DNA of 64,000 nucleotides from IMG/VR virus record IMGVR_UViG_3300022200_000023, positions 1 to 64,000 of that record; one strand, given 5' to 3'. Shown piece by piece: positions 326 through 48,426 of the stretch. This DNA comes from a virus. The notes beneath the pieces were generated by a model that was not told where the DNA came from, did no database searches, and worked only from the letters and a program-made list of their open reading frames with translations. The translations under genes were made by a program, and so were the position numbers. Each line of letters begins with the position of its first letter. Positions within the stretch are counted from its first letter, which is position 1.

Positions 326-370
326 GTTGCTACCCTGCTTGGGGAATGTTCTGAACGAAGTATAAAAGAA

Positions 371-400
371 AAGGCCTTGGAGGGAAACCGCCAAGGCCTT
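371..400 (-). terminator. Rho-independent terminator of the capsid operon
   Basis: AAGGCCTTGG at 371-380 and CCAAGGCCTT at 391-400 form a perfect 10-bp stem with a 10-base loop. Read on the minus strand it is followed by TTCTTTTAT, a good uridine tail. It lies 25 bases downstream of the capsid stop codon. Confidence 0.85.
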
Positions 401-407
401 TAGTTAC

Positions 408-424
408 GTTCCTAGGCTAGGAAC
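408..424. other. Short inverted repeat next to the capsid stop codon
   Basis: GTTCCTAG and CTAGGAAC flank a single G, giving 8-base arms at 408-415 and 417-424. It abuts the capsid stop codon and precedes the terminator. With so short a centre it is more likely a protein site than a hairpin, or it may be chance. Function unknown. Confidence 0.4.
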
Positions 425-1354
425 TTACGCGCCGGGCGCAGCGATATCCGTGATCCTGGCGATGCCGTTCACGTTGCCGATACCGATGCCCGGAGCCGAG
501 TAGCTCCAGAACTCGATGATGTCAGCCTCCTGCTTGATGAACAGGGTGGCGTCCTGCAGCAGGAAGAAGTTGCCGAGGTACTCCTGCGGGGCGAAGAACC
601 AGATCTCATCGTTGGCGATGATGTCGTTCTTGATGGTCGTGATGACCGGGTACCCGTACAGGCTCTTCTCGCCCTCGATGCCCTCATTGTAGTGACGCGA
701 AGCCACCGAGTCACCAATCTGCGCGGCCTGCATTTCCATGGCGTAGTTGTACAGCTCCTTAGTCATCAAGAGCTTCCCGCAGGGAATCTTGTTGGCTAGA
801 AGCATGTTGACACCAGCACGAATGATGGCAGGGTCGAAGTTCGCAGCGCCAGCCTTAGCCGCGGCGGTGCCTTCGTTAGCAACAGGTACCGCCGCCTTCA
901 CCGTCTCCATGAACTTCTGGTCTTCCTGGTCCGCCATATCCTTGACCGAGTTGTCAGTCAGGATCTTGCGGATGTCGTTCTGATAGGTCATCAGCTCGAA
1001 CTTCGACTTCGTGAACCGCTCGGATTCAACCTTGCCGAAGTAGACCGAGTACCGGGGACCCCGGAACCAGCTGCGCTGACCCGTACCCTTGAAGGTCACG
1101 TAGGTGGCCGTGCTGTCCGGCTCCTTCTCGATGATCTTCCGGGGCTGGTCCGTGTTGACGTCGCGGTCCAGCTCATCGGGGCCGATCTCAACGGGCTCGA
1201 GGATTTCCCGGGCGAACGAGTCCTGGCGCATCCGCGAACGGATGAACCGGGAGCCCTCGTCCTCGGCTTCCTTGACCCGGCCCTCCTCGAGCTTCCGAAC
1301 GAAGTTCGAGTTGATGAACTGGGCGCTAAGCTCTGCAGTTTCCTTGCGAGGCAT
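425..1354 (-). CDS. Major capsid protein (HK97-fold type)
   Basis: This is the shell-forming protein of about 309 residues. The sequence has the make-up of HK97-type capsid proteins of large myovirus-like phages: a charged N-terminal region, then a spine and P-domain region, with GYPVITTIKNDI and a hydrophobic C-terminal end (FWSYSAPGIGIGNVNG). I chose ATG at 1354, giving MPRKETAEL, because GGAAGGG lies just upstream; a GTG three codons earlier is the alternative. It is the last gene before a strong terminator and directly follows the decoration candidate, the usual end of a head operon. The call rests on sequence character and position; no catalytic motif exists to confirm it. Confidence 0.78.
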   Translation of the reverse strand: MPRKETAELSAQFINSNFVRKLEEGRVKEAEDEGSRFIRSRMRQDSFAREILEPVEIGPDELDRDVNTDQPRKIIEKEPDSTATYVTFKGTGQRSWFRGPRYSVYFGKVESERFTKSKFELMTYQNDIRKILTDNSVKDMADQEDQKFMETVKAAVPVANEGTAAAKAGAANFDPAIIRAGVNMLLANKIPCGKLLMTKELYNYAMEMQAAQIGDSVASRHYNEGIEGEKSLYGYPVITTIKNDIIANDEIWFFAPQEYLGNFFLLQDATLFIKQEADIIEFWSYSAPGIGIGNVNGIARITDIAAPGA

Positions 1355-1369
1355 TTTTAGCACCCTTCC

Positions 1370-1909: not shown

Positions 1910-1920
1910 CTATTTTCTCC

Positions 1921-2268
1921 CTACTTAGAGAGCCAGTTGAGGAAGCGCTCATCGGCCGCAGAAGCCCTGCCTTCCTTGTTTTCAATACCTGCTGTCTTAA
2001 CAGAGTCGGGTCCACCGAACTCATGCGCAGACTCTTCACTAGCTAACTTAGAGAGAATCTCGACGACAGACAAGTCCGCAGCCGAGAGTTTCTCTTTGAT
2101 TTCATCCTCGTCCAGACCGGTGGCCAGCGCAACCTTGTCAAGCACGGGGGACACGAGGCTGTTACGAGCCTCGCTCTCCTTACGCGCGTAATCAGCAGCA
2201 CGGGCATCGTACTCGTCAGCCGCAGCTTCGAGTACGGCGGCTACCTTCTCTAGGAGTGCGTTACTCAT
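1921..2268 (-). CDS. Small alpha-helical virion-type protein with K-x-A motifs
   Basis: A 115-residue, strongly helical and charged protein, not recognised. It carries the short motif seen across this operon: EKVA, DKVA, SKLA and VKTAG. Its start ATG overlaps the stop of the upstream 53-residue gene (ATGA), so translation is probably coupled. TACGCGCGTA at 2181 encodes its Tyr-Ala-Arg. Its place between protease and capsid genes, and its size, would allow a scaffold or scaffold-like role, but I see no direct proof. Confidence 0.6.
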   Translation of the reverse strand: MSNALLEKVAAVLEAAADEYDARAADYARKESEARNSLVSPVLDKVALATGLDEDEIKEKLSAADLSVVEILSKLASEESAHEFGGPDSVKTAGIENKEGRASAADERFLNWLSK

Positions 2269-2426
2269 GGCTCACCATAAATCTTAGACTTCAGGAATTC
2301 CATGCCAATAGCAGACACAAGAAGAGACGCGCACTTTTGGGTGCGGTCTGTCTCATCCGCCGCGGCTTTGGTGCGAAGCAGCTCTGCTAGCTTACGGAGT
2401 TCTTGCGCGGTGACCTTGTGGTTCAC
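2265..2426 (-). CDS. 53-residue protein, paralogue of the next upstream gene
   Basis: An open frame of 53 residues begins with GTG at 2426, overlapping the TGA of the upstream gene (GTGA), and ends in a TGA overlapping the ATG of the downstream gene (ATGA). The overlaps at both ends strongly support it as a real gene. It starts MNHKVTAQELRKLAELLR. The stretch ELRKLAELLR also occurs in the neighbouring 72-residue product, so the pair looks like a partial tandem duplication. Function unknown; probably a small virion or assembly protein. Confidence 0.75.
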   Translation of the reverse strand: MNHKVTAQELRKLAELLRTKAAADETDRTQKCASLLVSAIGMEFLKSKIYGEP

Positions 2427-2641
2427 GGAAGCCTCTCCACAAAAGCGTTGAGTTCTTCGTACGTCGGGTCTGTGTCAGAAGCACGAAGCAGCTCTGCCAG
2501 CTTACGCAGTTCTGCACCTTTCTCGGTCACAGGGTGCGCGGGCTCAGGCTCCGGCGCAGCGCTAGCAGTTTTCTCACGGTAGGCCTGCTTAGCCTCTGCG
2601 AGGATGCTGTCAAGCGCCTCTACTAGTTTGGACTTAGACAT
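2423..2641 (-). CDS. 72-residue helical protein with ELRKLAELLR motif
   Basis: The product begins MSKSKLVEALDSILAEAKQ and includes EKTASAA, then the ELRKLAELLR stretch shared with the next gene. Its ATG at 2641 overlaps the end of the upstream gene, and its TGA overlaps the GTG of the downstream one. No known domain is visible. It belongs with the family of small, charged, K-x-A-containing proteins of this operon. Confidence 0.65.
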   Translation of the reverse strand: MSKSKLVEALDSILAEAKQAYREKTASAAPEPEPAHPVTEKGAELRKLAELLRASDTDPTYEELNAFVERLP

Positions 2642-3243
2642 CAGATGCTCGTGAAGTCATACCCGCCGTAGTTGCCACCAGGTAGAAGTCCCTGGTTAGC
2701 AACCATGCGGTTAAGGCCCTGTAAGAGGTGCGGAGCTGCCAGGCCCGTGGCCAGGCCCCCGCCGTATGCCAGGCCGCGGTTTAGCGTAGCGTTGCCTTCA
2801 CCAGCGCTCTCGCCTGCGGCGTAGCCTCCGGCAGCACCGGCACCCGCGGCTCCCAGGCCGGCAGCACCGAGCCACCAAGGACTGATGCCGCCCCCAGAAG
2901 CACCCTGGGCGGCTTCCGCTGCGGCCTCGCCAGCTCCGGCTCCGGCACCGCTTGCGCCGCCTGCGTTGGGAGCCTGCCAGTCAGGCATCTTGGCCAGCCG
3001 CTGCTCATCTAAGATGCGCATCTGTTCCTTGGGGTCCAGTTTACCCATCGTAGTAGCATCGGGCGCGCGCTTTACTTTACGGGCGCCACCGGACATGAGT
3101 TTACGTACCCCGCCGGGAAGCCCACCGCTGGGAGCCCAGAACGCCTCTTTGGTGCTGAAGTCAGCAGCGAAATCAACGCCAGCCACCTTCTGCCGCTCAG
3201 CTTCGAAGAGCTCGAAGTATGTATTTAGAGCAGCGGTGCGCAT
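2641..3243 (-). CDS. Gly/Ala-rich virion-type protein with membrane-like segment
   Basis: The 200-residue product has a charged N-terminal half with MRTAALNTYFELFEAERQKVAG and a proline-containing basic middle. The C-terminal half is a long Gly/Ala stretch containing WWLGAAGLGAAGAGAAGGYA, which could be a membrane-inserting glycine-zipper. Several proteins in this operon share this design (at 5645, 12860, 15334 and 15659). Internal virion proteins that are ejected into the host often have such segments; that is an inference here. No enzyme motif seen. Confidence 0.6.
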   Translation of the reverse strand: MRTAALNTYFELFEAERQKVAGVDFAADFSTKEAFWAPSGGLPGGVRKLMSGGARKVKRAPDATTMGKLDPKEQMRILDEQRLAKMPDWQAPNAGGASGAGAGAGEAAAEAAQGASGGGISPWWLGAAGLGAAGAGAAGGYAAGESAGEGNATLNRGLAYGGGLATGLAAPHLLQGLNRMVANQGLLPGGNYGGYDFTSI

Positions 3244-3246
3244 CTC

Positions 3247-3798
3247 TTATCGCTGACCAACCCGCGACAGCAGGCTGAGGGTGTTCCTGTAGCCCTTGTA
3301 GGCGCAGTGTTCCGCAGCGGTCTTAATGACCTCCGCGGTCTTGACGTAGCCGTCCTGGTACGCCGATTGCGCAGCGTGGGCCAGCTTCTCCCGCGTCTCG
3401 CGGTAGCCTAGTTCCATGGCCTGCTTCGTAAGCTCAGGGTTGGCTGCGGCGAATTTCTCGAAGCTGTCCGCCGACGCGACCTTCACGCCCGACCCTGCGG
3501 TGTTGTACTTGTCCATGCGAGCAACAAAGCCATCACAGAGAGCAGCGCCAAAAAGCTCCGCCTCCTTGATGAGAGCTTCCTGCTCCGCAGTGGCAAGACG
3601 CTGCGCGATCTTGGTCAGGTCCTGCGTAGGAGTAGCCTGCGGCCGTGCGCCAGCAGTCTTAGTCTGCGTATCCGCCGCAGCCACTGCTGCCTTGACAGCA
3701 TGGCTAAGCGTATTAGCTGTGTCAGTCTGGACAGAGGCGGTCTTCTCGGTGGGAGTGTCGGTCCCAAGCTTGTCCAGAATTTCCGAAAGGCTAGGCAT
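3247..3798 (-). CDS. Lysine/alanine-rich helical protein with many K-x-A motifs
   Basis: 183 residues, nearly all predicted helix, beginning MPSLSEILDKLG. It is the richest carrier of the operon's short motif: EKTAS, TKTAG, KIA, KEA, KVA, KFA, KQA, KLA, VKTA and IKTA. Upstream lies a 73-base gap (3799-3871) before the protease gene; I see no confident promoter there, though TATACT occurs on the minus strand. Position right after the prohead protease and the helical composition resemble a scaffold or core protein. That is a reasonable but unproven assignment. Confidence 0.6.
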   Translation of the reverse strand: MPSLSEILDKLGTDTPTEKTASVQTDTANTLSHAVKAAVAAADTQTKTAGARPQATPTQDLTKIAQRLATAEQEALIKEAELFGAALCDGFVARMDKYNTAGSGVKVASADSFEKFAAANPELTKQAMELGYRETREKLAHAAQSAYQDGYVKTAEVIKTAAEHCAYKGYRNTLSLLSRVGQR

Positions 3799-3871
3799 CT
3801 TACAGTTCCTCTCTGGTGTACCTGCAGACCACGGTTCAACAGTATACGTGTTTTACAGGTGGCACAATAGT

Positions 3872-5644
3872 TCAGGCTAAAAGCCAGGCACCTAGCGCCT
3901 GGGCTGTGGCATCAAAATCAGCTTGTTCTCCAAGCACCGGGTCCACCGACCCAAGCTTGACAATCGTCTCAGGTAGTTTAGTCGGTGTGTACGCGCGTGC
4001 AAAGAGCCTATCTGCGTAAGAAGACACTGCGAACTGCGGTACATAGCTGGCGGTCCGTTCAACGAACGTAGTGCTGTCAGGTACAATCAGGTCCTCTCGG
4101 ACTCGCATAGACTTAGGGCGCATCATAGCAAACGCGCCTGCACCCAGGCCCCCGGAAGCTAACCAGCGAAGTCCGCGATCACCGATTGTAGGCTTGAGTA
4201 GCTTGTTTGTGAGAGCGGCCAGCGCCAGGCTGCCAAGAGCGCTGCCCCCTAGTGCTTTAAGGTGCAGGTCTTGTGCACTCCGCACCGCGCTACCGGTGGT
4301 GTAGTGCAGTTTCCCCGTGGCTGTGTCCCGAACCGGGATAGCAGAGAGATGGCCCCCCTCAAACGGAGACCTAGACGGAAGTACCGGAGACGAGGCCAGC
4401 TTCATCATCCCGCGATCGGTCCAGTCGCGCCGGGCGGCCCAAAGCGCAACTTTCTCTTTCACTTCGTCATCAGGCTCAGCGCTGGGATCGATTACCCCTG
4501 TCTCGATTACCGCGGACGCTAGTTCTGGGTGCTTCGCCATGATGCGAAGCAGATCGCCCTGAACGCTGATTAGCTTTTCAATGACACCCTGCGGTAGCTG
4601 CTGGCCTGTCAGAGAGTAGACTAACAGACGCAAGAACTCAGGAGTAGTAAGAAGTACCCCCATGTCTGAGAGGCTTGCGAGGACCCGAGGGAACTTCTTA
4701 CCGGACAGCCACCCTAGGTCATCGTTGTCAAGCGGCTGGTAGCCGGACAGCACCTTGGGGATGATGTTCTTTACCCAGCCCCGAAGGAGCTTAGCGTTGT
4801 TGGGGTCGGTGCTCTCTTCGGAGTCCTGCCCTGCTGGACTGACCCCGAATCCAACACCCTCGACGTACTTGTCGATCTCCGCTGCTTTAGAGAGAAGGCT
4901 CGCCAGGATCTCTCTAGCTGCTACTTTCTCCCCCAGGGACGCTGACGACTCCGTGAACTCTGGCGTTGCGCTGTCTCTCGCTACTTTCTTGAGCATGTAG
5001 CCTGTGCGGTCCGCCGGACGCCACACAACAGAGATGTCAAAGAAGACAGGGTTGGGGTTGTCTACGAAGACAATGCGGCCATCCGGGAGGATCTCGTTTA
5101 GGTGGTACTTAGCGTGGTCGCAGTACTCCGCGCGACTGGGGGCTTTATTAGCGCAGATGGAGCAAACGTCGAACTTGATCCTGCACCCCATCGAAACCGC
5201 CAAATCCCGCCCATCACGGATTTTGCTAGCGATATCCGGGGCTTTAGCGTCATCAATTTCAAGCACCAGCTCTACGCGGTGCATGTCTTCGTTGTAAAAC
5301 GACTTAACTACACGTCCGAAAGACTTAGCAGGGTCCTTGTTGACGTGGGACCGGTATACATGCGCAGACGACTCAAAGGTCTTGTGGTGCTTGCGCAGCT
5401 CTGCCTCGGAGAATCCATCCCCATTACGGTTAGGCCCGTAGTACTCGCTAGCACCGATAGCCAGGACAAGGATGTAGGTCTTACCTGCCTTGGGCTTGAT
5501 GCTCTTAGCCCAATCGCTGGCTTCGCTAGCGGTTTTGATGGTCTCCGGGTGGCGGAGATCCAGTAGCTGTACTGTAGGCTCAATGGTACCCAGTCTGCGG
5601 GAGACCAGCCTATCCTCGAGCTCCAGGAACTTTGTCAGGGACAC
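3872..5644 (-). CDS. Prohead protease-like protein with long C-terminal extension
   Basis: 590 residues. The N-terminal 220 or so look like an HK97/S78-type capsid maturation protease: after GASEYYGPNRNGDGF comes a candidate histidine in YRSHVNKDPAKSFGR (His100), then a candidate nucleophile in DLAVSMGCR (Ser151). Such proteases cut scaffold and capsid proteins inside the prohead. A cysteine/histidine cluster (CSICANKAPSRAEYCDH, about 161-177) directly after the serine may bind zinc and is unusual. The remaining 370 residues are unrecognised and contain K-x-A motifs (IKTAS, EKVAA) and an Ala/Gly segment. A fused scaffold or minor capsid region is possible. Confidence 0.68.
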   Translation of the reverse strand: MSLTKFLELEDRLVSRRLGTIEPTVQLLDLRHPETIKTASEASDWAKSIKPKAGKTYILVLAIGASEYYGPNRNGDGFSEAELRKHHKTFESSAHVYRSHVNKDPAKSFGRVVKSFYNEDMHRVELVLEIDDAKAPDIASKIRDGRDLAVSMGCRIKFDVCSICANKAPSRAEYCDHAKYHLNEILPDGRIVFVDNPNPVFFDISVVWRPADRTGYMLKKVARDSATPEFTESSASLGEKVAAREILASLLSKAAEIDKYVEGVGFGVSPAGQDSEESTDPNNAKLLRGWVKNIIPKVLSGYQPLDNDDLGWLSGKKFPRVLASLSDMGVLLTTPEFLRLLVYSLTGQQLPQGVIEKLISVQGDLLRIMAKHPELASAVIETGVIDPSAEPDDEVKEKVALWAARRDWTDRGMMKLASSPVLPSRSPFEGGHLSAIPVRDTATGKLHYTTGSAVRSAQDLHLKALGGSALGSLALAALTNKLLKPTIGDRGLRWLASGGLGAGAFAMMRPKSMRVREDLIVPDSTTFVERTASYVPQFAVSSYADRLFARAYTPTKLPETIVKLGSVDPVLGEQADFDATAQALGAWLLA

Positions 5645-6238
5645 TTAGTCCTCCAGGATGAGCTCCGCCACGATGTTGGAAAGGTGGCCGGCAGCGTGCT
5701 TGGTGACCTCGAGGTGATAGGCACTCGCCTCGGGAGCCACGACACTAGCACTCTTCACCAGCTTAGCAAAGGTCTGGTACGCAGCCTCAGCGTCAGCAGC
5801 GGTAGCAGCGCCATCAGCGGCCGTCTTGGCTCCCTGCTGTCCTCGGTTACCCATCATCTGACTGAGCCCGTACACGCCTGCGCCTACGCCCAGGGGCACC
5901 GCAGTCATCAGCGCCGTGTCCCTGAGGTCTTCGTTGGCCTTGTTGGCCACCATAGCGCCTGCGACACCTAGAGGCACCGCAGCTCCGGCGCCCATAGCCA
6001 TACCTTTGCCTACAGACCCCAGTGCGTTGCGGACGTTGTTCCCCTTAAGAGAACTCAGAATCCTGGACCCCATTTTCTCAAGGCAAGCAATGACCGCAAC
6101 GTCATGAGCGAACTTAGCGTTGAGGACGTTCTCCCGCTCCTCGCCCTCGCGCAGCTCTGCCAACTTAAGCAGCGCCTGAGACTTAGCGGCATGCTCTACC
6201 ATAGCAGGCAGAGACGCATACGCAGTGAGATTGCTCAT
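5645..6238 (-). CDS. Virion-type protein with Gly/Ala membrane-like segment
   Basis: I place the start at ATG 6238 (MSNLTAYASL), where it overlaps the TAA of the upstream gene by one base (TAATG); a longer frame extends upstream but lies inside that gene. The product has about 197 residues. A charged N-terminal helix with LLKLAELREGEER is followed by a glycine-rich hydrophobic region (GMAMGAGAAVPLGVAGAMVA, then a second such segment). The C-terminal helix contains TKHAAGH. It also has AKTAADG. Same design as the products at 2641, 12860 and 15659. Not recognised; likely internal virion protein. Confidence 0.6.
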   Translation of the reverse strand: MSNLTAYASLPAMVEHAAKSQALLKLAELREGEERENVLNAKFAHDVAVIACLEKMGSRILSSLKGNNVRNALGSVGKGMAMGAGAAVPLGVAGAMVANKANEDLRDTALMTAVPLGVGAGVYGLSQMMGNRGQQGAKTAADGAATAADAEAAYQTFAKLVKSASVVAPEASAYHLEVTKHAAGHLSNIVAELILED

Positions 6239-6489
6239 TACCGCTTCTCCGTTAACGCTGCCGACGCTTCTAGGCCCTGTCGGACAATGGTCCACGACGC
6301 GTTCTTAAGGTAAATCTTTTTACCTAACTCACGCAGCGCTGCGTCCATGTCGAAATCTGCTACGCCAGCCGTCTTAGCCATGAGCTCGTGGAGCTGCCCG
6401 GAGGAAGCTAGCTGGGCAGCCTGTCCCGTAACTTCCGGTAGCGCACCAGCGGTCTTGAGGTACTCGGTTAGGGTGTCGGTGTGCGTCAT
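6238..6489 (-). CDS. Small protein with two K-T-A-G motifs
   Basis: 83 residues, starting MTHTDTLTEYLKTAGALPEV and containing a second copy of the motif as AKTAGVADF. The rest is helical and charged. It overlaps the downstream gene by one base and lies 4 bases from the upstream gene, so it is part of the same translation chain. No fold recognised. Confidence 0.6.
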   Translation of the reverse strand: MTHTDTLTEYLKTAGALPEVTGQAAQLASSGQLHELMAKTAGVADFDMDAALRELGKKIYLKNASWTIVRQGLEASAALTEKR

Positions 6490-6493
6490 GTCC

Positions 6494-7144
6494 TTACTTC
6501 TTCTTCGAGAAGCGGCCAGTGACCGCAGTTTCAGCCTCAGCCAGACCCTTGATGCTCATGAAGTCCAGCCCACCCTCGTGCTGCACCGCTTCCCGCAGGA
6601 AAGACTTAGTGGCGTTGAGGTCGGTGGACAGGTTCGGGGCAAACCGAGCCATGGAGTGGTACGCCTCGAGCACGCGCTTCATCGGCGCTTGCTTGATGAT
6701 ATCGTCTTCCTTGCGGAGCTTAGATAGCACTGCCTGGCGAGCAGGGCTGTCTACCAGGGTGTTCTTGAGGCCCTTGACGGTGTCTTCCGCCAGGCCCCCG
6801 AGGATCCCCGCTGCGCTTTCGACAGCGAGACCCACGGCCTTCTCCGCGGCAACCTCGTCAGCCTTTACGCGCGTAAGCAGCCCGCCCAGGCCGTCGTTGA
6901 GGCCCCGGTTGATGCGGTAGCCATAGGTACTCATGATGGGCTTGCTGAGCTCATCCAAGTTGAGGATAGACCCGCCGATTATGCCGCCCGTCAGGATGTC
7001 CAACTTAGGCTGAATACCCTTGTCCAACACCGGAACTGCACGCCCGCCTCCACCGCTGTTGCCGCCACCTCCTGCGCTAGCGCCAAACAAACTTCCCAGA
7101 AAAGCCACCTTCTCCCGGTACGCTTCCGCGGTCTTACTTTCCAT
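6494..7144 (-). CDS. Uncharacterised virion-type protein
   Basis: 216 residues. It begins MESKTAEAYREKVAFLGSLFG, combining a K-T-A and a K-V-A motif, then has a Gly-rich linker (ASAGGGGNSGGGGRA). A mixed helical region follows, with GGIIGGSILNLDELSKPIMS. The gene overlaps the upstream gene by 11 bases. TACGCGCGTA at 6866 encodes its Thr-Arg-Val. No enzyme motif seen; by company a structural or ejected protein. Confidence 0.58.
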   Translation of the reverse strand: MESKTAEAYREKVAFLGSLFGASAGGGGNSGGGGRAVPVLDKGIQPKLDILTGGIIGGSILNLDELSKPIMSTYGYRINRGLNDGLGGLLTRVKADEVAAEKAVGLAVESAAGILGGLAEDTVKGLKNTLVDSPARQAVLSKLRKEDDIIKQAPMKRVLEAYHSMARFAPNLSTDLNATKSFLREAVQHEGGLDFMSIKGLAEAETAVTGRFSKKK

Positions 7145-7991
7145 AACGAGACTCCATGAGCTCTAGGCCCGTCTGGGCGTGCAGCCCGCGTTCCCGGGAA
7201 ACAATGAAGTGCCCTGCGGCAATGAGCGCCGGGGACTCGTCGTAGACGCGGTACTGCGCGGCTACCTTAACTGTGCCCTCGTCCGGCATCTGCGTGTACG
7301 TAGGGTAGCCCAGCTTCTCCCGCACAGCGTTGATGCAGTGCACAGCATCGGAGCCGTACGCCGCCAGGCTATCCTGCTCCCAGGTAGCCAGCTTTTCTCG
7401 GCTGTACATGCCTCGAAAGTCCTCAGCGATAGCCTGGCTTAAGTCGTCACAGAAGTAGAACGCCGACGCGATCTTGTCTCGAAGACCGTCCATGGTCCTA
7501 GCGATGCGTACTGCATTCCACTCTGCATTGCGTGCGCTGACTCGAGGCTCCCAGGCTGCGGTCTTACAAGAGCAGCTTTCGCAGCCACCCTCACAGTCGC
7601 AGCCCCCTTCTTCCATGCTCTCTTCCGCAGAGTTCTCATCGGCTACGTCATCGAAGAATAGTCCGTCGCCCTCATCCTCGGGAGGGGGGTTGGTGGGGTC
7701 GTCAGAAGCCTGCTTTACGGGGCGCACATCAACAGGACCACCGTAGTACTTATCAAGAGTAGACTGCGGGTCCGCGACCTCGAACTCGACCATACGGTCG
7801 TCACCTGCGGTCTTTCTGAACAGATCTAGGAAAGCTCCGGTGTTAGCCATCTCTACGACGCGCTTAACCTGCTCCGGGTTGAGCTCCTCGCGCTTGGCTA
7901 CCTTAACGATCCCGTCCTCGAGAGACGTGCCGTCGTCAATGAACATAGCCACAGCTTCTTTGGCTAGTTCCTCGTAATCCTGTCGCTTCAT
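7134..7991 (-). CDS. Uncharacterised protein with cysteine cluster
   Basis: 285 residues. The N-terminal 65 residues are a helical domain (MKRQDYEELAKEAVAMFIDD). An acidic linker leads to a compact run of cysteines around residues 130-143 (CDCEGGCESCSCK), which could hold a metal or form disulfides. A C-terminal domain ends in GLELMESRYGK. K-x-A motifs appear as IVKVAKR, RKTAGDD and CKTAAWE. It overlaps the upstream gene by 4 bases (ATGA). The function is not known. Confidence 0.58.
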   Translation of the reverse strand: MKRQDYEELAKEAVAMFIDDGTSLEDGIVKVAKREELNPEQVKRVVEMANTGAFLDLFRKTAGDDRMVEFEVADPQSTLDKYYGGPVDVRPVKQASDDPTNPPPEDEGDGLFFDDVADENSAEESMEEGGCDCEGGCESCSCKTAAWEPRVSARNAEWNAVRIARTMDGLRDKIASAFYFCDDLSQAIAEDFRGMYSREKLATWEQDSLAAYGSDAVHCINAVREKLGYPTYTQMPDEGTVKVAAQYRVYDESPALIAAGHFIVSRERGLHAQTGLELMESRYGK

Positions 7992-8746
7992 TGAGGGCTC
8001 ACAGAGTGGATAGCGATGTCTGCTCCAAGTTTATTTCGGCTGGTGGTGATATCCAAGCCGGTGAGCTCGATTCGTAGCTCATCAATGGAGCGGATACGGT
8101 CATTGTTGTGTTCTAGCACAGCATCCGCGAGCCGGATAGTGTGCGGTAGCCATGCCCGCGCCTCTTGCGCTGCGGCATCGTTGAGTCGGCTGAAGATGTG
8201 CTCTCGGCTACGCCACATGGAATCAGCCAGCAGAGTCTTAAGCATCTCTGCTACGGAAAGGCTGTTGTTCTTACCAGTTACACGCCACTCGACGTATTCC
8301 CACCCCAGCTTTAGGGCCCAGTTCAACATATCCCTGTAGTACTGCTCGTCATCAGTGCCCGCAGGGAGGTGTTGTACGAACGAGTTCTTGAGCAGGCGGT
8401 TACGGAACACGTCTGTTTCAAAAAACAGAGCTCTGTAGGCTAGGACAGTATCTTCTTCCACCTCAGTGATAGAGAGGATCTCCCCTATGGGGGTGTTAGA
8501 GAATAGCAGCGCAGACAGCACAGTACGCGCGTACGGGATAGCGTTAAGGCACACTGCCTCGTAGACGCTGGCTACCACCTCTTCAGTACCATCAGACCGG
8601 ATGAAGTCCACCAGATAGTTCTGATGTCTGTCCGGAAACGTAGGCGCGGACCCGTGGTCCGTTTGTAGCCACTTAGTGACTTCCCGGTACCGGTAGTCGG
8701 GGGCCCTGTAGTAGCCCTGCGGGATTACTGTCCGGACGTGGTCCAT
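7988..8746 (-). CDS. Uncharacterised 252-residue protein
   Basis: The product begins MDHVRTVIPQGYYRAPDYRYREV and is mostly helical and acidic. A stretch near residues 95-120 (SNTPIGEILSITEVEEDTVLAYRALFF) has the spacing of a helix-turn-helix: a short helix, a turn, then a second helix. That could point to DNA binding, but the resemblance is weak. It lacks the K-T-A motif common in its neighbours. It overlaps its upstream neighbour by 22 bases. No firm role. Confidence 0.55.
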   Translation of the reverse strand: MDHVRTVIPQGYYRAPDYRYREVTKWLQTDHGSAPTFPDRHQNYLVDFIRSDGTEEVVASVYEAVCLNAIPYARTVLSALLFSNTPIGEILSITEVEEDTVLAYRALFFETDVFRNRLLKNSFVQHLPAGTDDEQYYRDMLNWALKLGWEYVEWRVTGKNNSLSVAEMLKTLLADSMWRSREHIFSRLNDAAAQEARAWLPHTIRLADAVLEHNNDRIRSIDELRIELTGLDITTSRNKLGADIAIHSVSPQ

Positions 8747-11013
8747 GTCGCGCTGCCTAGACCCTCAACACTGGGTGCCTCTGCAGCTAGAGTATGCCTA
8801 TCCAAACGGATAATCAAATCTCCAAGTCCGCGGAATACCTGCTTTAACTTCGCCTGGAGGGTAGAGAAGTCCTCCTCTCCAAGCTCTTCCATCAGGTCTC
8901 CCTGCTTCATGGCTACCGACAAAATGATGCGCCCCAGGGAGTCCAGAGACTTCTCCAGGTGAGGCAGGTACTGCGCTACTAGCTCTGTCATCTCAGCCGA
9001 CTGGACTAGAGAAGCCACTGCGGCCGTGTCGAATACACCTGCGTCACGAAGGTCCGCTGCGGCCTCCATGAATTCCGGGTTGATGGGGGGCGCCTGCATC
9101 TGTCCGCCAGGAGCACCGCCCATCATGGAGGGGTCACCGCCCATCATGGAGGGGTCACCGCCCATCATGGAGGGGTCACCGCCCATCATGGAGGGGTCAC
9201 CGCCCATCATGGAGGGATCCATGGGAGGCATCCCGCCACCGCCGCCCATCATGGAGGGATCCATGGGAGGCATCCCGCCACCGCCGCCCATCATCATGGG
9301 GTTAGCCTGCTTGAACAGCCCCGGCAGGTTGGCTAGCCGTGCAGCAGGAACAACATGAGCGGTCTTAGAGTACCCGGGGGAGATCTCTCTAAGGAAGTTG
9401 AGCGCTGCCTGAGCGTGAACTCCGTCAGCCGCTAACTTGTTGATAGCGCTGACGATGTTGCCTACGCGCTGGCCCTCGATGCTCCAGTCTCCCTGGCCCG
9501 AGTTCTTGACTCGCACCTGGTGGCTAGCCTGCTTCACCAGGCCTGCGGAGATGAGGTCCACTAGGGTAGACACGTCTTGCACCAGAGTCACTGCGTTGAT
9601 GCGGTTACGCAGCGCTACCGACTTGAAGTGCGCCGGGACAAAGACGGTGTTGCCCCCCGGAGGTGCGTGCAGCTTCTTTACCTTCAGTTTCTCACTGAGA
9701 ACAACGCTACCTCGAGCGGGAAGCTTGTTCCGGCGCTCGGAATTGAGGTCGGAGCCCCAACCATCCTCGCTTTCCCACCAGTCAACAATCTCCGCGCGAG
9801 ACTCTCCGTTGTCATTTTTAGTGACGCCCCGGGCCCGGAAAGGCTTAGTAGCCTGCCACATGCCCTGTGACACAGAGATTAGCGCCTGCTTACCATTGCG
9901 TAGCGTAGCAACAGTGTCTTTGTTGAGCGCAGTGGCTACAACGCCAACAGGCATGTCCTCTACAGTAGTAAGCGCAACTAGCCCGCCGGTGAGGGCGTAG
10001 TCCCCATTAGGGAAGAGTACTAGGAACCTATCGCCACGATCCCGCCACCTACTCCCATAAGGGCTCCGAATCTTGATGGGACGCGCTCTCTCCGCGTCAA
10101 CAAGGTCGTCCATGCACTCGGGGTTAATGAAGACCGCAGCAACGTGGATCTTCCCCTCGGAGTCGATGATCTTGTAGACGCCGCCTTCCGTGACCTCTTC
10201 GTAGGCTACCGGGTCGTCCATGTTGACAGGGATAGATGCAGTTTTACGCATGTCCCGGACGACGACGCCCTCCGAGCAGGCTGTTTGGTAGGCTACAGCA
10301 GCCCCCTTGCCAAAGGCAGCCCGGAAGTCTGTCGCAGGACTGTCTTGTGTGAGGACCCACACCTGCTGCGCAGGCGCGGAAGCAACCTTCTCGGCGTGCG
10401 GACGTAGAGACTTAGTCAGCCGTTCCGCCCCGTGGTACTCCACTGCAGCGCGCAGGCAGCGCGGGCTCTCTTTGAGAAGATTTGCGAACGCTACCTTGAC
10501 AGTGTTCGGTGCCTCTTCGAGGAAGTCGCACAGGTTCATCTGTGCGCTAGCGTAGCTAAACCGGCCACTAGACGGAGGCGTAGTTATTCCCCGCAGGTCC
10601 ACCCCAGCGTTGGCGGAGTCCGGAGCTTCCGCAGGACCGCCTAGAGGGGTGTCCGTGTCTTTTTCTATTTCCTCGAGCCATGCCTTGTCCAGCGGTAGGA
10701 ACGCGTCAGCATCCTTGTCGTACATGACCTCGGGCGGATCGACCTTATCCCCCGCTAGCACCACAGGTACGTAGATGAACTTCTGCCCCAAAGCTACGAT
10801 GAACACACCGGTGGCCCGCGACTCATCAAGACTGGAGTCCAGAACCTTGAACGTCACGATGGAGTCCAGAAGCCGGGGCATCTTGCTCTCTAGCATGGTG
10901 TACGCCAGCGTAGAGAACATCTGGTCAAAGACGCCCTGCTCAGGGGAGTCCGGAGGGCCCGCGGTCATGAACGCGTTAGTGCGCGGGGAGATAGCAGCAA
11001 GCTTAACGGTCAT
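8725..11013 (-). CDS. Large virion-type protein with GDPSMMG repeats
   Basis: 762 residues, the largest unrecognised protein of the head operon. It begins MTVKLAAISPRTNAF. A mixed alpha/beta region of about 560 residues carries K-x-A motifs throughout (TVKVAF, AEKVAS, MRKTAS, VKQAS, INKLAA, SKTAHV). Near residues 570-635 lies a low-complexity linker of MMGGGGGMPPMDPSMM and GDPSMMG repeats. A C-terminal helical region ends the protein. It sits in an unbroken run of overlapping genes. A tape, portal-vestibule or ejected inner protein are all conceivable; the sequence does not settle it. Confidence 0.6.
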   Translation of the reverse strand: MTVKLAAISPRTNAFMTAGPPDSPEQGVFDQMFSTLAYTMLESKMPRLLDSIVTFKVLDSSLDESRATGVFIVALGQKFIYVPVVLAGDKVDPPEVMYDKDADAFLPLDKAWLEEIEKDTDTPLGGPAEAPDSANAGVDLRGITTPPSSGRFSYASAQMNLCDFLEEAPNTVKVAFANLLKESPRCLRAAVEYHGAERLTKSLRPHAEKVASAPAQQVWVLTQDSPATDFRAAFGKGAAVAYQTACSEGVVVRDMRKTASIPVNMDDPVAYEEVTEGGVYKIIDSEGKIHVAAVFINPECMDDLVDAERARPIKIRSPYGSRWRDRGDRFLVLFPNGDYALTGGLVALTTVEDMPVGVVATALNKDTVATLRNGKQALISVSQGMWQATKPFRARGVTKNDNGESRAEIVDWWESEDGWGSDLNSERRNKLPARGSVVLSEKLKVKKLHAPPGGNTVFVPAHFKSVALRNRINAVTLVQDVSTLVDLISAGLVKQASHQVRVKNSGQGDWSIEGQRVGNIVSAINKLAADGVHAQAALNFLREISPGYSKTAHVVPAARLANLPGLFKQANPMMMGGGGGMPPMDPSMMGGGGGMPPMDPSMMGGDPSMMGGDPSMMGGDPSMMGGDPSMMGGAPGGQMQAPPINPEFMEAAADLRDAGVFDTAAVASLVQSAEMTELVAQYLPHLEKSLDSLGRIILSVAMKQGDLMEELGEEDFSTLQAKLKQVFRGLGDLIIRLDRHTLAAEAPSVEGLGSATWTTSGQ
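9109..9300. repeat. Tandem coding repeats (21-bp and 42-bp units)
   Basis: About five near-identical 21-base units reading CCGCCCATCATGGAGGGGTC plus A are followed by two 42-base units containing GGATCCATGGGAGGCATCCC. On the minus strand they encode GDPSMMG repeats and GGGGGMPPMDPSMM repeats. The near-perfect identity of the units suggests recent expansion by slippage or unequal recombination. Confidence 0.9.
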
Positions 11014-11615
11014 GTGTCGGTACCCTTAGTTGAGAGAATCTGGCCTAGGTAAACAGTAGGCGCGGCCAGGCCATGAATGTAGTGTTGTAGCAAAGATGGC
11101 AGTAGGCGCCCAGCAGACCTGAGTTTTTGGTCTGCACTGCCTACAGCATTAACGGTAGCTTTGGTCTCTTCATAGAGACTTGGTAGGGCTAGTGCTGCAC
11201 TGACGCCTGCCAACGGCGCCAGGACTGCATTCCTAGTGTCCTTGTCCTGCACCATAGACCCGAGGGTCATGCTCACCGGTAACGCTGCAATGGAATTGAT
11301 GAGGTTGGCTTTGTTGCTTAGAGCCAGCAAGCTCTTGTACGTAGGCGACGCTCTCCCAACGCTCCTGGCGTGGCCGGCTTCGTGAGCAAGCTCATCTCCA
11401 GAAGGCGCAGCTAAAGAGATAACGTCTAGCTCGGGGGAGTAATGAGACTCCCCCGTGCCTACTTGTACGTCCTTGAGTTCTGGGGCTCTGGATAGAATAC
11501 GCTTAGCGCGGTCTCTGACCTCGTGGGCTTCTTCCGCGCTAGCGTTCGGGAAAAGGTCCTGGACCCCGCTGAGAGTTACGAGGTCCTGAAACCTAACTGT
11601 GTGACTCGCGGACAC
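11010..11615 (-). CDS. Membrane-associated zinc metallopeptidase-like protein (HEAGH)
   Basis: 201 residues, starting with GTG at 11615. It carries a zincin signature, DELAHEAGHARS, at about residues 74-85, where HEAGH supplies two zinc-binding histidines and the catalytic glutamate. Two hydrophobic segments follow (NLINSIAALPVSMTLGSMV and AVLAPLAGVSAALALPSLY), so the enzyme is probably membrane-bound. No third zinc ligand can be named with certainty. It overlaps the next virion gene by 4 bases. A peptidase in this position could process virion proteins or act on the host envelope during entry; both are inferences. Confidence 0.6.
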   Translation of the reverse strand: MSASHTVRFQDLVTLSGVQDLFPNASAEEAHEVRDRAKRILSRAPELKDVQVGTGESHYSPELDVISLAAPSGDELAHEAGHARSVGRASPTYKSLLALSNKANLINSIAALPVSMTLGSMVQDKDTRNAVLAPLAGVSAALALPSLYEETKATVNAVGSADQKLRSAGRLLPSLLQHYIHGLAAPTVYLGQILSTKGTDT

Positions 11616-11626
11616 AAAGGGAAGCC

Positions 11627-12787
11627 TTAGCGGCCCAGACCCAGCTGGCGGAGGATGTTGGTGGCCGCAGCGGCCTCCTTCTCCTCAACAGCAGCCTCGT
11701 CCTTCTTCTCTTCCTCCGCCTTCTCCTCCGCCATCTCCTCTTCCGCAGCGGCCTCTTCGGCGGCCTTGGTCAGGCGGCGGATGTACTGACCGCGCTCCTC
11801 GTTGGTCATGCCAATCATGGTGCGTAGCGCAGCTAGCTTGTTATGGTTGGAGAGGCCCTCGGGGAGAAAGTGACCTACCTCCGACGCGGTCTTGCGAAGC
11901 AGGTACTCAAACGCCCGGTCCGCAGCGACCTTGCCCTCGAGCTTGAGGTCCGTGGGAGCGCCCGGGTGCGACTGCTCCTGGCCCTGCTGCACCGAAGGCT
12001 CGCTGACCGGAGGACGCTCGTTGGCGTAGCCGTCCGGGCGCTTGCTGCCCTCCGCATCACCCTCGGCGGTGTGATCCAGCTCCGAAACGTGCTGGCCGGC
12101 TTCGACGCCGCCGCCCGTAGCACCCTTGAGGTCCGACGGGTTCATCTCACCCATGGCGAGCTTACGCAGAATCGCTGCAGCCGTGGGCCCGTCAAGGTTC
12201 ACGTTGGCGGAAGCCGACTTACCGTTACCGGAGTGGTCAAACACGTAGGTGCTGGTGGGAGCACCAGGGTGCATGGTCTGCTGGCCCTGCTGCGCAGCGG
12301 GGTGCATCTCCATAGCCGGACGCTGGTTGGCGTAGCTCTCCGGACGCTTCTGCGCCTCAACCGAGCCTTCCTGCGTAATGGCCGCAGCCTGCGACAGGTG
12401 GTTGCCCGGGTTGTCCATGCCACCGCCGGTAGCACCGATGTCCGACGCGCGCTTAGCATAAGCAACGGCCCGCTGCGCACGATTTAGAAGAGCAGCCTCC
12501 TTGGAGGCTTCCTCCTCCGCCAGCTCCAGGAGCTCTTCCTCGGGCGAGGGCTCTGCGTCACCGGTAGCCTCCGCCAGCTCCAGGAGCTTAGCAGCTACGT
12601 CGCCAGTGACCTCCTCAGGAACCTCTTCCTCCGCGACGGCGAGCTCCAGGGGAATTTCGTCGGCAGCCACCTCCGCAGCCAGGTCAGCCATGGCTTCGTT
12701 AGCGTACTTGCCAATAGCGCCAGCGCGGACTAGCGCGTTCTGGACGCCGCGAACGTAGGCGACCTTGAACAGCTTAGGTGTACTCAT
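11627..12787 (-). CDS. Acidic virion-type protein with N-terminal AY-x-x-G signature and internal duplication
   Basis: I start it at ATG 12787 (MSTPKLFKVAYVRGVQNAL), preceded by GGAGAG at 8 bases; an ATG at 12835 is the alternative. The product has 386 residues. It shares the N-terminal AY-x-x-G pattern with several other virion-type genes. It holds two related segments: GATGGGMDNPGNH to HPGAPTSTYVF, and GATGGGVEAGQH to HPGAPTDLKLE, each with an E-G-S-x(3-4)-KRP and ANxRP core, so an internal duplication is clear. The C-terminal end is a highly charged Glu/Lys/Ala helix. Not recognised. Confidence 0.6.
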   Translation of the reverse strand: MSTPKLFKVAYVRGVQNALVRAGAIGKYANEAMADLAAEVAADEIPLELAVAEEEVPEEVTGDVAAKLLELAEATGDAEPSPEEELLELAEEEASKEAALLNRAQRAVAYAKRASDIGATGGGMDNPGNHLSQAAAITQEGSVEAQKRPESYANQRPAMEMHPAAQQGQQTMHPGAPTSTYVFDHSGNGKSASANVNLDGPTAAAILRKLAMGEMNPSDLKGATGGGVEAGQHVSELDHTAEGDAEGSKRPDGYANERPPVSEPSVQQGQEQSHPGAPTDLKLEGKVAADRAFEYLLRKTASEVGHFLPEGLSNHNKLAALRTMIGMTNEERGQYIRRLTKAAEEAAAEEEMAEEKAEEEKKDEAAVEEKEAAAATNILRQLGLGR

Positions 12788-12859
12788 TAGTCCAACTCTC
12801 CGGTGGATATTAGTTCCGTTGCAATCATGGTTCATCCCTTTAGCAATTGCAACTGTGGT

Positions 12860-13552
12860 TCATACAAAAACGGGTGCCTGTTGCACCGCAGGAGAAGCGG
12901 GTTTGTAAACAGTCATGTCTCGGCCCCATTGGTTTCCGACTCCCAACTCCGGAGCTAACTCGCCGGGGGCCAGTTGCACTTCTTTCTTGGGAAACAGGCG
13001 CCCCACACTACCTCCTAGGTAACCTCCAGCTAGAGACCCCGCAATCCCAAACGGCCCGCCCAACGCGTACCCCGCTATCTCCCCCAGGCCGCCTGCCGCG
13101 CCCGCTGCGTCACCAGTGGCAGCTGAGTGCGCAGCTAACCCGATAGGAAGCGCGGCGCCCAGAGTTAGGTTACCCGCACCCATAGCTCCGGAACCGGCAG
13201 CCCCGAGAAGCCCTTTAGTACGGTCCCAGCCCCCCAGGTCCTTGTTTCTAAATTTAGCCCAGTTCTCCTTCATCCCGGGGCTAAACGCGAAGTCCCCTCG
13301 GATGATGCCACCTTTGCCTAGGATGCCGCCCTGGTCATACCGAGCCTTCAGGATCTTATGAGGGCTCTTGTCGCCTAAAAAGATGCCGCCAAGGAAGCCT
13401 CTCTGCAGGTCCGGGTTAATCCACCCAGACTCATTTACGTACTTCCGTGCTTCGCGGAGTTGTCTGCCTTTCAGGGCTTTGCCAAAGAGAACCTCTTTGA
13501 CTCCAGCTTCTTTGACTAAAACGTCAGCAGCGATAGTAGCCGGAGTCTTCAT
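12860..13552 (-). CDS. Gly/Ala-rich virion-type membrane-active protein
   Basis: 230 residues. It begins MKTPATIAADVLVKEAGVKEV, and residues 115-190 form long Gly/Ala hydrophobic stretches (GLLGAAGSGAMGAGNLTLGA, then GGLGEIAGYALGGPFGIAGS), typical of membrane-inserting glycine-zipper segments. A proline-rich hydrophobic tail ends the protein. It overlaps the RNA polymerase beta' C-terminal gene by one base. It may help an injected polymerase or DNA cross the cell envelope, which is speculation from its company. Confidence 0.55.
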   Translation of the reverse strand: MKTPATIAADVLVKEAGVKEVLFGKALKGRQLREARKYVNESGWINPDLQRGFLGGIFLGDKSPHKILKARYDQGGILGKGGIIRGDFAFSPGMKENWAKFRNKDLGGWDRTKGLLGAAGSGAMGAGNLTLGAALPIGLAAHSAATGDAAGAAGGLGEIAGYALGGPFGIAGSLAGGYLGGSVGRLFPKKEVQLAPGELAPELGVGNQWGRDMTVYKPASPAVQQAPVFV

Positions 13553-15333: not shown

Positions 15334-15657
15334 TTACCGCCTCTCACGATTCATAAACGCGTTAGCACCCTGCCACCCGCCTACCCCGCCGAGCAAGCCT
15401 AGGAGAGTTTTACTCACCGTGCTCTGCCCCAAACCACCTAGGAGCCTAGCCCCCGCTACAGCGGAGGCGCCTTGAGCAGCGCCCTGCCCTTTAGTAGCAG
15501 GGGTAGCCAGCAAGGACCCAGGGACACCCCCTGTCATGGTCGTAATGCCGCCCGCCAGGCCACCAGCCAGCAGCGAAGGCAGCAAATCAATGCCAGCGTG
15601 CTTTTGCAGGTCTTCTCGAGCCATAGCAGCCCCGATAGCGTAGGCTCTATCAAGCAT
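15334..15657 (-). CDS. Small hydrophobic virion-type protein with AY-x-IG N-terminus
   Basis: 107 residues, beginning MLDRAYAIGAAMAREDLQKHAG, one of five products in the window with this N-terminal pattern. Most of the remainder is Gly/Ala/Leu-rich (LLAGGLAGGITTMTGGVPGS, then TLLGLLGGVGGWQGANAF), able to insert into membrane. It lies directly between the beta' C-terminal gene and another gene of the same type. Unknown function. Confidence 0.58.
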   Translation of the reverse strand: MLDRAYAIGAAMAREDLQKHAGIDLLPSLLAGGLAGGITTMTGGVPGSLLATPATKGQGAAQGASAVAGARLLGGLGQSTVSKTLLGLLGGVGGWQGANAFMNRERR

Positions 15658-15658
15658 T

Positions 15659-16327
15659 TCAGAACCCTCCTACCGGGTTGAAGTAGTTTACCGGGCGACC
15701 GCCAAGCCCTAGGTGCTGGGCTCCGTACTCACCACCTGACTGACCAACCCCATAGAGCATCATAGAACCACCAAGACCGCCTGCGAGGCCCATGGCTTTG
15801 GGGGCGAGTCCGCCTACCATCTGGCCTATGCTCTTGTCGCTATTGGCAAAAGCGTTCGCCTTGCCCTTAAAGAAGCCGGAGGCGTCAGCCCCTGCGAAAG
15901 ACTTGGCTTTGGCATTGAGGTAATCACGGAACTTGGAATCAGCGCCGCCTAGGTTAGCAAAAGCTGCCCCAGGCTTAGTTTTGCCGAGGCTACGGCCGAT
16001 GCTATTACCCACCCCCTTGGCCACTCCTTTACCCGCGTGCCACCCCGCTGCGCCAGCTAAGCCTCCAGCAGCGCCACCAAGGAAGCCCTTCCAGCGCTCC
16101 CCTTCGTTAGCGGTAGCAGCGCCTAAAATCCCGGATCCAATGGGGGCCCCAATCCACTCAGCCCCGGGGCCGCCCATACCCGCCCCCCACTTTAACGCTT
16201 TGAAGCCTGTGGACTTAGGGAAAGCTTTAGTGGCGTTCCACAAGCCTCTAACGGCGCCGAAGATAGCTTCCTTGGTGAAGTCCTCTTCGGCCTGCGCCGC
16301 CCCCAGCCTATAGGCCTGGCCTAGCAT
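15659..16327 (-). CDS. Gly-rich virion-type protein with AY-x-LG N-terminus
   Basis: 222 residues, beginning MLGQAYRLGAAQAEEDFTKEA, closely parallel to the start of its downstream neighbour. The middle contains long Gly/Ala segments (GAATANEGERWKGFLGGAAG, then GLAGAAGWHAGKGVAKGVG) and the C-terminus is glycine-rich with little charge. The shared start and composition suggest that the two genes arose by duplication or share a targeting tag. Function unknown. Confidence 0.58.
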   Translation of the reverse strand: MLGQAYRLGAAQAEEDFTKEAIFGAVRGLWNATKAFPKSTGFKALKWGAGMGGPGAEWIGAPIGSGILGAATANEGERWKGFLGGAAGGLAGAAGWHAGKGVAKGVGNSIGRSLGKTKPGAAFANLGGADSKFRDYLNAKAKSFAGADASGFFKGKANAFANSDKSIGQMVGGLAPKAMGLAGGLGGSMMLYGVGQSGGEYGAQHLGLGGRPVNYFNPVGGF

Positions 16328-46118: not shown

Positions 46119-46758
46119 GCAAACTACGCATCGTACTGACGTAGTTGCCTACCTCCATAAGAACCCTGGCGTGCACGCACGCGGCGTCATCCTCGTCGTA
46201 CGGGCACTCCTTGTGAGTGCCTAGGAGCTCCAGGGTTCTTTTCTTTAGTTCCTCTTCTCGGCCCACCTTCGGGACCATGGTGTCCAGCGCATCCTGTGCA
46301 AACGCCAGCTCAGGAGGAACAATCACCAGACCGCTTGTAGCACAAAGAGCAGCGGCGTAAACAGCGGGCTCATCCCCGTAAAACTGCGGCCCACTCCACT
46401 CTTCGTAATGCTGGGCCATGAGGCGCATCTCCACTACCGTCCAGCAGAGCTCACCAACCTCTGTGCCCGTGATGGACTCTGGCTGCGCAACCCGCCCATT
46501 GAGCGTCTCAGAGAGGTTCTCCAGCACGCGAGCGTCCCACAGGTAGGCAGGGTTAGCCCTGACCGCTGTGACCGCTAGGAGGCGGTCCAAGGCGGCCTCG
46601 TCGGGGGGCAGGCAGCCCTGGTCCTCCAAGAAGACCAAGAGGCTATCTGTCTCCCACGCAGCATGCGCCCCGCCCGTAAGCTCGTCACAGGCAAGGCTCT
46701 GCACTAGGGCCAGTGTGTCGCCCGAAGAGAGGAGGGATTTGGCTTTTTCTAGGAGCAC
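46081..46758 (-). CDS. Uncharacterised protein
   Basis: 225 residues, GTG start overlapping the upstream stop (TAGTG). It is helical and acidic with no membrane segment, beginning MLLEKAKSLLSSGDTLALVQ. A short Cys-containing stretch (HKECPYDEDDAACVHARV) lies near the C-terminus. No motif recognised. It belongs to a three-gene minus-strand group whose other members look like virion proteins. Confidence 0.6.
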   Translation of the reverse strand: MLLEKAKSLLSSGDTLALVQSLACDELTGGAHAAWETDSLLVFLEDQGCLPPDEAALDRLLAVTAVRANPAYLWDARVLENLSETLNGRVAQPESITGTEVGELCWTVVEMRLMAQHYEEWSGPQFYGDEPAVYAAALCATSGLVIVPPELAFAQDALDTMVPKVGREEELKKRTLELLGTHKECPYDEDDAACVHARVLMEVGNYVSTMRSLLNSQLLEAGVRL

Positions 46759-48387: not shown

Positions 48388-48426
48388 GTACCTTCTCCGA
48401 GAGCTGGTCAAATTCTAGACAAAAAA

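Follow-up and report, generated by a model that had tools for sequence, protein, structure and literature searches.

A candidate prohead protease site, K-x-A, concentrated in the head proteins of a large tailed phage

Introduction

Every prohead protease studied so far trims an N-terminal propeptide off the capsid protein (PMC7411985, in excerpt), and the enzymes of phages T4, phiKZ, 201phi2-1 and SPN3US all cut after Glu (PMC5694885, in excerpt). Here we analyze the first 64 kb (the window) of the 95,530-base IMG/VR phage record IMGVR_UViG_3300022200_000023, in which a short peptide motif, K-x-A (Lys, any residue, Ala), recurs through the proteins of the head module. An original prediction had drawn attention to one form of this motif, K-T-A (KTA), as repeated through the virion-type proteins and as a possible prohead protease site, capsid-interior targeting signal or scaffold-binding site. 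We propose K-x-A as a candidate site for cutting by the prohead protease that the phage itself encodes.

The gp21 system of T4 has the protease fold that we find in the window phage and the same side-by-side arrangement of protease, scaffold and capsid genes. Also apparently shared are a scaffold with many sites (gp22 in T4) and short N-terminal propeptides that precede a site; gp21, however, cuts after Glu (IxE/LxE), whereas the conserved residues in the window phage are Lys and Ala (PMC5694885, in excerpt). SPN3US gp245 and the phiKZ-type proteases likewise belong to large phages with a multisubunit virion RNA polymerase, and they show autocleavage beside the catalytic domain, N-terminal propeptides and a preference for Ser after the cut, features that the window phage appears to share. 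The SPN3US site differs in being A-x-E, cut after Glu, and its propeptides mostly exceed 100 residues, against the ~20-40 proposed here (PMC10052503, PMC5694885, in excerpt). In phage P1 the capsid protein has an N-terminal propeptide, as we propose for the window phage, but the P1 protease Pro cuts it after Glu (MLE↓SVAAEM, the arrow marking the cut; PMC9024508, in excerpt). The protease fold is also shared by the assemblins of herpesviruses (varicella-zoster virus, VZV; pseudorabies virus, PRV; herpes simplex virus, HSV; human cytomegalovirus, HCMV; Epstein-Barr virus, EBV; Kaposi's sarcoma-associated herpesvirus, KSHV), which differ in being eukaryotic viruses with the scaffold in the same protein as the protease. 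Their release bond is Ala-Ser, and Lys two residues before the Ala is not known to be part of the herpesvirus cleavage rule. Herpesvirus proteases release themselves at a site after the protease domain, the position at which K-V-A sits in the window protease (PMC4498786, in excerpt).

Results

The head genes of the window form a minus-strand cluster that runs from the capsid gene through small genes, a scaffold-like gene, the protease gene and further uncharacterized genes up to the RNA polymerase genes at 13552-15333 and 17045-21391 (Table 1). We compared motif counts with those in 300 shuffles, in which residues were permuted within each protein so that Lys and Ala content was preserved, for two hand-chosen gene sets: a head set of 18 head-cluster proteins (4,589 residues) and a comparison set of the 65 other proteins of the record (24,904 residues). 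The head set contains 16 KTA against 1.9 expected, 78 K-x-A against 35.1 and 51 K-x-A-[SGAE] against 13.8, counts that none of the 300 shuffles reached. Two distant genes, at 46758 and 47416, are also enriched (3 KTA against 0.2; 10 K-x-A against 3.7). The 65 other proteins show no excess (KTA 9 against 7.9; K-x-A 104 against 126.4), nor do control pairs within the head set (AxK 27 against 34.8, RxA 23 against 30.1, KxL 25 against 24.0). The enrichment therefore survives correction for Lys and Ala content. All 12 genes named by the original prediction do carry KTA, with 19 copies in total; its strict form, [EVIA]-K-T-A-[SGAE], fits 10 of the 19 and the other copies deviate. Further forms are in excess in the head set, namely KVA (14 against 2.2), KLA (10 against 3.4) and KEA (8 against 2.5), so that V, L and E are over-represented at x as well as T, the favourite of the window phage. 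The true unit is in fact the looser K-x-A, in full [LMF]-[EVT]-K-x-A-[SAEG], of which KTA is one case.

The enrichment is a property of the head module and not, as had been suggested, of virion proteins generally: the 12 tail-type proteins have 19 K-x-A against 24.1 expected, which rules out a generic virion motif. A DNA-level motif is ruled out as well, since the 19 KTA copies are encoded by 12 distinct 9-base spellings and, within positions 1-16400, the coding strand has 16 occurrences of AARACNGCN and the opposite strand two. K-x-A is a peptide-level signal.

We next ranked all residue pairs at gaps of 1-4 by observed against shuffled counts, in the window phage and in its relatives. Related protease, RNA polymerase and capsid proteins are encoded by Salmonella phage Arash and Vibrio phages D69, D148 and D181 (capsid protein identity 38-43%), and head-gene order, compared in Arash and D69, is similar in the window phage and these two. 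Another record, IMGVR_UViG_3300025687_000001 (160,861 bases), encodes a protease and a 46758 protein that are both identical to those of the window and therefore represents the window phage or a near-identical one. Gene sets for Arash, D69 and Tonenili were made by a greedy longest-open-reading-frame rule, which also served for the 22 loci and the G001 and Arash tag counts described below, and the D69 ranking drew on two stretches only. K-x-A ranks first in the head sets of the window phage (of 1580 pairs), Arash (of 1464) and D69 (of 1536); in their remaining proteins it ranks 1544, 1529 and 1213 of 1600, respectively. Our IMG/VR scan yielded at least 43 related capsid loci. A related capsid gene with sufficient upstream sequence was available in 22 further loci; K-x-A takes first place in 21 of these and second place in the other, although they are not 22 independent trials because some are close relatives. 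Of the downstream regions, 17 gave a result, and the best rank of K-x-A among them is 141. As a positive control, the scan of eight T4 head proteins ranks IxE, the known gp21 site, first (30 against 14.6), and in the window head set neither IxE nor LxE reaches the top 12 pairs. K-x-A is thus enriched in the head modules of both relatives examined, Arash and D69, with a different preference at x: mostly E, Q, A, V or S in Arash, D69, D148 and D181, whereas the window phage favours T.

In Tonenili (Mycobacterium cluster C; L015, a partial genome) K-x-A is not significantly enriched (23 against 15.8, rank 77 of 1588). Its protease (L015 19217-22927) has KHA at 28 and KTA at 219, flanking the catalytic domain, and its capsid protein (L015 23505-24506), which matches PDB 6wkk (Gp27 major capsid protein, E 2e-28), has KQAKLA at 42-47. 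As a lead only, the K-x-A site code may predate the clade of the window phage.

The protease matches phrog_18299, a head maturation protease family (E 1.6e-10), and its gene adjoins the scaffold-like and capsid genes. An AlphaFold2 model shows a confident protease domain at about residues 40-212 with disorder on both sides and a conserved K-x-A at each domain edge, the second in a segment of low predicted local distance difference test score (pLDDT <50) directly past the domain. Model numbering is gene numbering minus one, since the first codon was dropped. The best PDB match of the model is T4 gp21 (Foldseek E 0.0041, probability 1.00; Z 10.5 and root-mean-square deviation 3.0 over 139 residues of 5jbl_B), followed by the herpesvirus assemblins (Z 4.6-7.6), whose alignments reach residues 211-223, about where the K-V-A site lies (219-221, model numbering). 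A PDB sequence search with the protease alignment found nothing beyond coiled coils, FliJ and Protein L. In an alignment of 21 sequences, whose numbering is used here, H99 and S150 never vary; in a weak hhalign match (E 0.07, 0.8% probability) they stand opposite the NHPP and GVSS stretches of gp21, which we take to hold its catalytic residues. Of 25 aligned proteases, 24 have a K-x-A immediately ahead of the catalytic domain, with 11 different residues at x, and all 25 have one immediately behind it (V at x in 24, S in one); the protease lacking the first site, from L040, is interrupted by an apparent intein. We assign the 3872-5644 product as a prohead protease of the gp21/assemblin fold with predicted activity at K-x-A. 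The intein-like insert in the L040 protease gene (240-2594) ends ...AEGICSHN ahead of a conserved Cys, and a 1,060-residue protease homolog in L038 may carry such an insert too.

The capsid protein model has the HK97 fold (Z 16.5 to the HK97 prohead 3qpr_A, model residues 27-305 on HK97 119-383); a PDB sequence search with the capsid alignment gave a chance match only (E 0.96). The alignment holds 44 sequences drawn from the capsid loci of the scan plus Arash, D69 and L007, and K-x-A is kept in 43 of them, with E at x in 39, Q in two and L and R in one each. The sole capsid protein without it, in L057, comes from a contig that begins past the site. The scaffold-like family has 27 homologs with 7-14 K-x-A sites each. 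Its alignment comprises 28 rows, one of which, L046, was misassigned and is really homologous to the 7134 protein; this row enters the conservation counts and is left out of the spacing count. The Lys and Ala columns are among the most conserved (0.93-1.0, mean 0.47) and x varies, with up to seven residues at a single site; successive sites lie 4 to 45 residues apart, with 13 and 15 as the peak spacings, and the members from L019, L023 and L040 have additional tandem repeats built on K-x-A. The scaffold-like and tagged proteins tested matched no PHROG or Pfam family. The sites thus fall at the capsid N-terminus, at the edges of the protease domain and repeatedly in the scaffold-like protein, which is where a prohead protease must cut.

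The residues around the motif outline a short footprint. Across 1,490 sites within families, a tally in which orthologs are counted repeatedly, Leu and Met are enriched 2.8-fold and 3.1-fold two residues before Lys, Glu 3.4-fold directly before Lys and Ser 3.1-fold directly after Ala. Proline, counted in 1,396 distinct contexts, is depleted from K-2 to K+4 only (0.15-0.35), and farther out it is at or above its normal level (1.34 at K-4, 1.33 at K+6); around KTA it is ~2-fold enriched at K-6, K-4, K+6 and K+9. The footprint is seven residues, L-[EVT]-K-x-A-[SAEG], and the proline pattern looks like that of a seven-residue extended substrate peptide within a flexible linker. Exclusion over only seven residues argues against a long helix as the shared element. 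An invariant Ala with Ser enriched next to it would fit a bond of the herpesvirus assemblin type, and we infer that the cut bond is probably the one after Ala (x-K-x-A↓S).

A second element, the N-terminal tag AYxxGxxxA, is carried by at least 12 proteins of the window phage, usually with K-x-A after it. In G001, 14 of 208 open reading frames contain AYxxGxxxA, 12 of them within the first 30 residues. Four records together hold 22 proteins with the tag near the N-terminus, and K-x-A occurs in the next 30 residues in 17 (expected 2.8 from random 30-mers, 8.1 from shuffles of the same stretches) and K-x-[AGS] in 20 (6.0 and 12.9); R-x-[AGS] is found in 4 of 22, against 7.6 expected from random 30-mers. 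The shuffle expectation for K-x-A is the higher because Lys and Ala are abundant in the post-tag stretches. When the whole 46758 protein was used as a query, it recovered a second protein that shares only the N-terminal part (49% over residues 4-47). AYxxGxxxA is therefore, at the sequence level, a short N-terminal element common to otherwise unrelated proteins and followed by a candidate protease site, as expected of a capsid targeting sequence, and it resembles those of T4 internal proteins and P1 DarB (PMC5694885, PMC9024508, in excerpt). The N-terminal 30 residues of DarB suffice for targeting cargo (PMC9024508, in excerpt). These 30 residues contain no K-x-A. AYxxGxxxA, rather than K-x-A itself, may be the targeting part. 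No Arash protein has it within its first 30 residues, so the tag seems particular to the window's part of the clade. A tblastn search with one tag sequence gave no real match among 50,697 phage records, nor did a search with the 47416 protein give any. G001 also holds a cluster of small tagged Gly/Ala-rich proteins with a membrane-active look (150172-156833; L067, L068), possibly ejected conduit proteins.

The remaining genes of interest are listed in Table 1. The RNA polymerase that adjoins the head genes is multisubunit, with one protein that fuses beta to the N-terminal part of beta' and the remainder of beta' encoded separately. It is probably a virion RNA polymerase, because its ortholog is the most-detected virion protein in mass spectrometry of Arash (PMC10585845, section 16). 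Within the head cluster, the 8725-11013 protein has a Met/Gly/Asp/Pro tandem repeat (DPSMMGG) in its later part, and the 11010-11615 protein, present in only five related loci, has a HEAGH zincin-like motif that makes it a possible second protease inside the head. Elsewhere in the window, an open reading frame at 50531-51664 has a YSDN motif and resembles a reverse-transcriptase-type polymerase. Sets of an AAA-type ATPase and a von Willebrand-A-like protein occur twice (window 42703-43989 and 48427-49851; L004 16-2575) and look MoxR-like by eye.

Table 1. Head-module and tagged genes of the window, with KTA copies for the 12 genes of the original prediction
Product	Position	Strand	KTA copies	K-x-A sites and other features
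Major capsid protein, HK97 fold	425..1354	-		K-E-A at residues 28-30 (bases 1265-1273), proposed propeptide cut
Small head protein	1921..2268	-	1	4 K-x-A; 28 homologs with 3-7 sites each
72-aa head-cluster protein	2423..2641	-	1	EKTAS and RKLAEL, the second kept in 24/26
Scaffold-like protein	3247..3798	-	4	11 K-x-A; between protease and capsid genes
Prohead protease (predicted), assemblin/gp21 fold	3872..5644	-	1	K-x-A at 37-39 (bases 5528-5536) and 220-222 (bases 4979-4987)
Head-cluster protein	5645..6238	-	1	5 K-x-A
83-aa protein	6238..6489	-	2	KTAG twice
Head-cluster protein	6494..7144	-	1	N-terminus MESKTAE
Head-cluster protein, Arash gp220 ortholog	7134..7991	-	2	8 K-x-A
762-aa head-cluster protein, Arash gp218 ortholog	8725..11013	-	2	11 K-x-A
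386-aa acidic protein	11627..12787	-	1	N-terminal tag LFKVAYVRGVQNAL; 12 K-x-A
Gly/Ala-rich protein	12860..13552	-		DVLVKEAG site at N-terminus
Tagged Gly-rich protein	15334..15657	-		Tag MLDRAYAIGAAMAREDLQKHAG
Tagged Gly-rich protein	15659..16327	-		Tag MLGQAYRLGAAQAEEDFTKEAI
Tagged protein, outside head cluster	46758..47414	-	1	FFKEAYDLGCQQALEDFG...EKTAN
K-x-A-rich protein	47416..48411	-	2	8 K-x-A; homologs in D69 (10 sites) and Arash (gp242, 8 sites)

Discussion

Based on the enrichment and its restriction to the head module, the conservation of Lys and Ala with a free x, the protease fold, the position of the sites and their footprint, we infer that K-x-A (approximately [LMF]-[EVT]-K-x-A-[SAEG]) is likely the cleavage site of the prohead protease encoded at 3872-5644. 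The prohead would assemble around a scaffold made of the 3247-3798 protein and neighbouring K-x-A-rich proteins. The protease would then release itself at the K-x-A sites on either side of its catalytic domain, cut the scaffold at its many sites, take ~30 residues off the capsid protein and trim the N-terminal propeptides of co-packaged proteins, in some of which the AYxxGxxxA tag, which may act as an address, precedes the site. Of the roles first suggested for the motif, that of a protease site is the one to which position, conservation and footprint lend strong support.

Several observations speak against such cleavage. No cleavage products were seen. Some sites lie in predicted helices, two of them in helix 233-255 and one in helix 392-405 of the protease model, and the capsid K-E-A is at the N-terminal edge of predicted helix 27-45. 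The capsid site aligns close to residues 116-122 of HK97, whose own cut, which we take to be at position 103/104, lies ~15 residues earlier. The RNA polymerase, although packaged in Arash, is not depleted of K-x-A: we looked for selection against the motif in co-packaged enzymes and found none in the window subunits (15 against 15.9 expected) or in Arash gp206 plus gp217 (12 against 12.5; gp216 is outside this set), so accessibility must protect the polymerase from cutting. Lastly, mass spectrometry of the Arash virion gives a coverage of 100% for the scaffold-like gp223 and of 95.8% for gp220 (PMC10585845), which does not look like proteins that have been chopped and cleared. The coverage column itself looks loose, as primase gp183 is given 89.7% with 2 unique peptides (PMC10585845), and we do not use it as evidence on cutting in either direction.

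The cut might instead fall after Lys ([LMF]-x-K↓x-A), a variant that is compatible with K-x-A as the protease site and that would parallel the T4 rule [LI]-x-E, since the Leu enrichment two residues before Lys recalls the Ile or Leu two before the cut Glu in T4. The HK97 protease also cuts after a Lys. Ala, however, is as invariant as Lys in the capsid proteins, and an invariant Ala at P2' would be unusual; the enriched Ser moreover stands directly after Ala, and we regard a cut after Lys as unlikely.

K-x-A could also be an uncut docking peptide that retains proteins in the prohead by attaching to the inner wall of the capsid, to the scaffold or to the protease. The tagged N-termini share K-x-A-Y-x-x-G-x-x-x-A, with small residues every four like a helix-packing element, the scaffold homologs show repeats with preferred spacings, and some sites are within predicted helices. 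But the spacing has no single period, the proline exclusion is short, the sites sit at the capsid N-terminus and flank the protease domain, and Arash packages an RNA polymerase in which K-x-A is not enriched, all of which leave docking quite improbable. The polymerase counts also rule out a packaging signal required by all head proteins, and the suggestion that K-x-A is a targeting signal falls with them, as neither the window enzyme nor its packaged Arash counterpart is enriched. Scaffold binding is possible for a minority of sites, those in predicted helices. That the motif is a by-product of composition, of helical Ala/Lys-rich proteins or of one domain's common descent is barely credible: the head proteins are Ala-rich (13.7%) and the family-wide tallies count orthologs repeatedly, but the shuffles preserve composition and together with the control pairs rule out a composition artefact, and the sites occur in many separate head-cluster families, which conserve K and A but neither x nor the flanks.

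Returning to K-x-A as a protease site, the prohead proteases of T4, phiKZ, 201phi2-1 and SPN3US cut after Glu, as does that of P1 at its capsid protein, and we found no K-x-A prohead site among open-licence papers; by this comparison the window phage would have a prohead protease system of known type with a new site code and a tag like a capsid targeting sequence. Tentatively, and with slightly more doubt than confidence, we extend this to a clade of large RNA-polymerase-carrying tailed phages. Their head protease site may be x-K-x-A↓S, with an assemblin-like Ala↓Ser bond in place of the Glu cut of T4, phiKZ, SPN3US and P1, and a modular address tag (K-x-A-Y-x-x-G-x-x-x-A ... K-x-A) on a dozen unrelated small, often Gly-rich proteins may send them into the head, where they would be trimmed. 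If this is true, sequence alone yields a protease's cut-site code for a clade in which hardly any head proteins are annotated, identifies the scaffold, the capsid propeptide and the injected cargo of that clade, and provides a new tag with which proteins could be loaded into phage heads. Pair ranking, a simple test that recovers the T4 site as well, could decode prohead protease specificity in further phages known only by their genomes.

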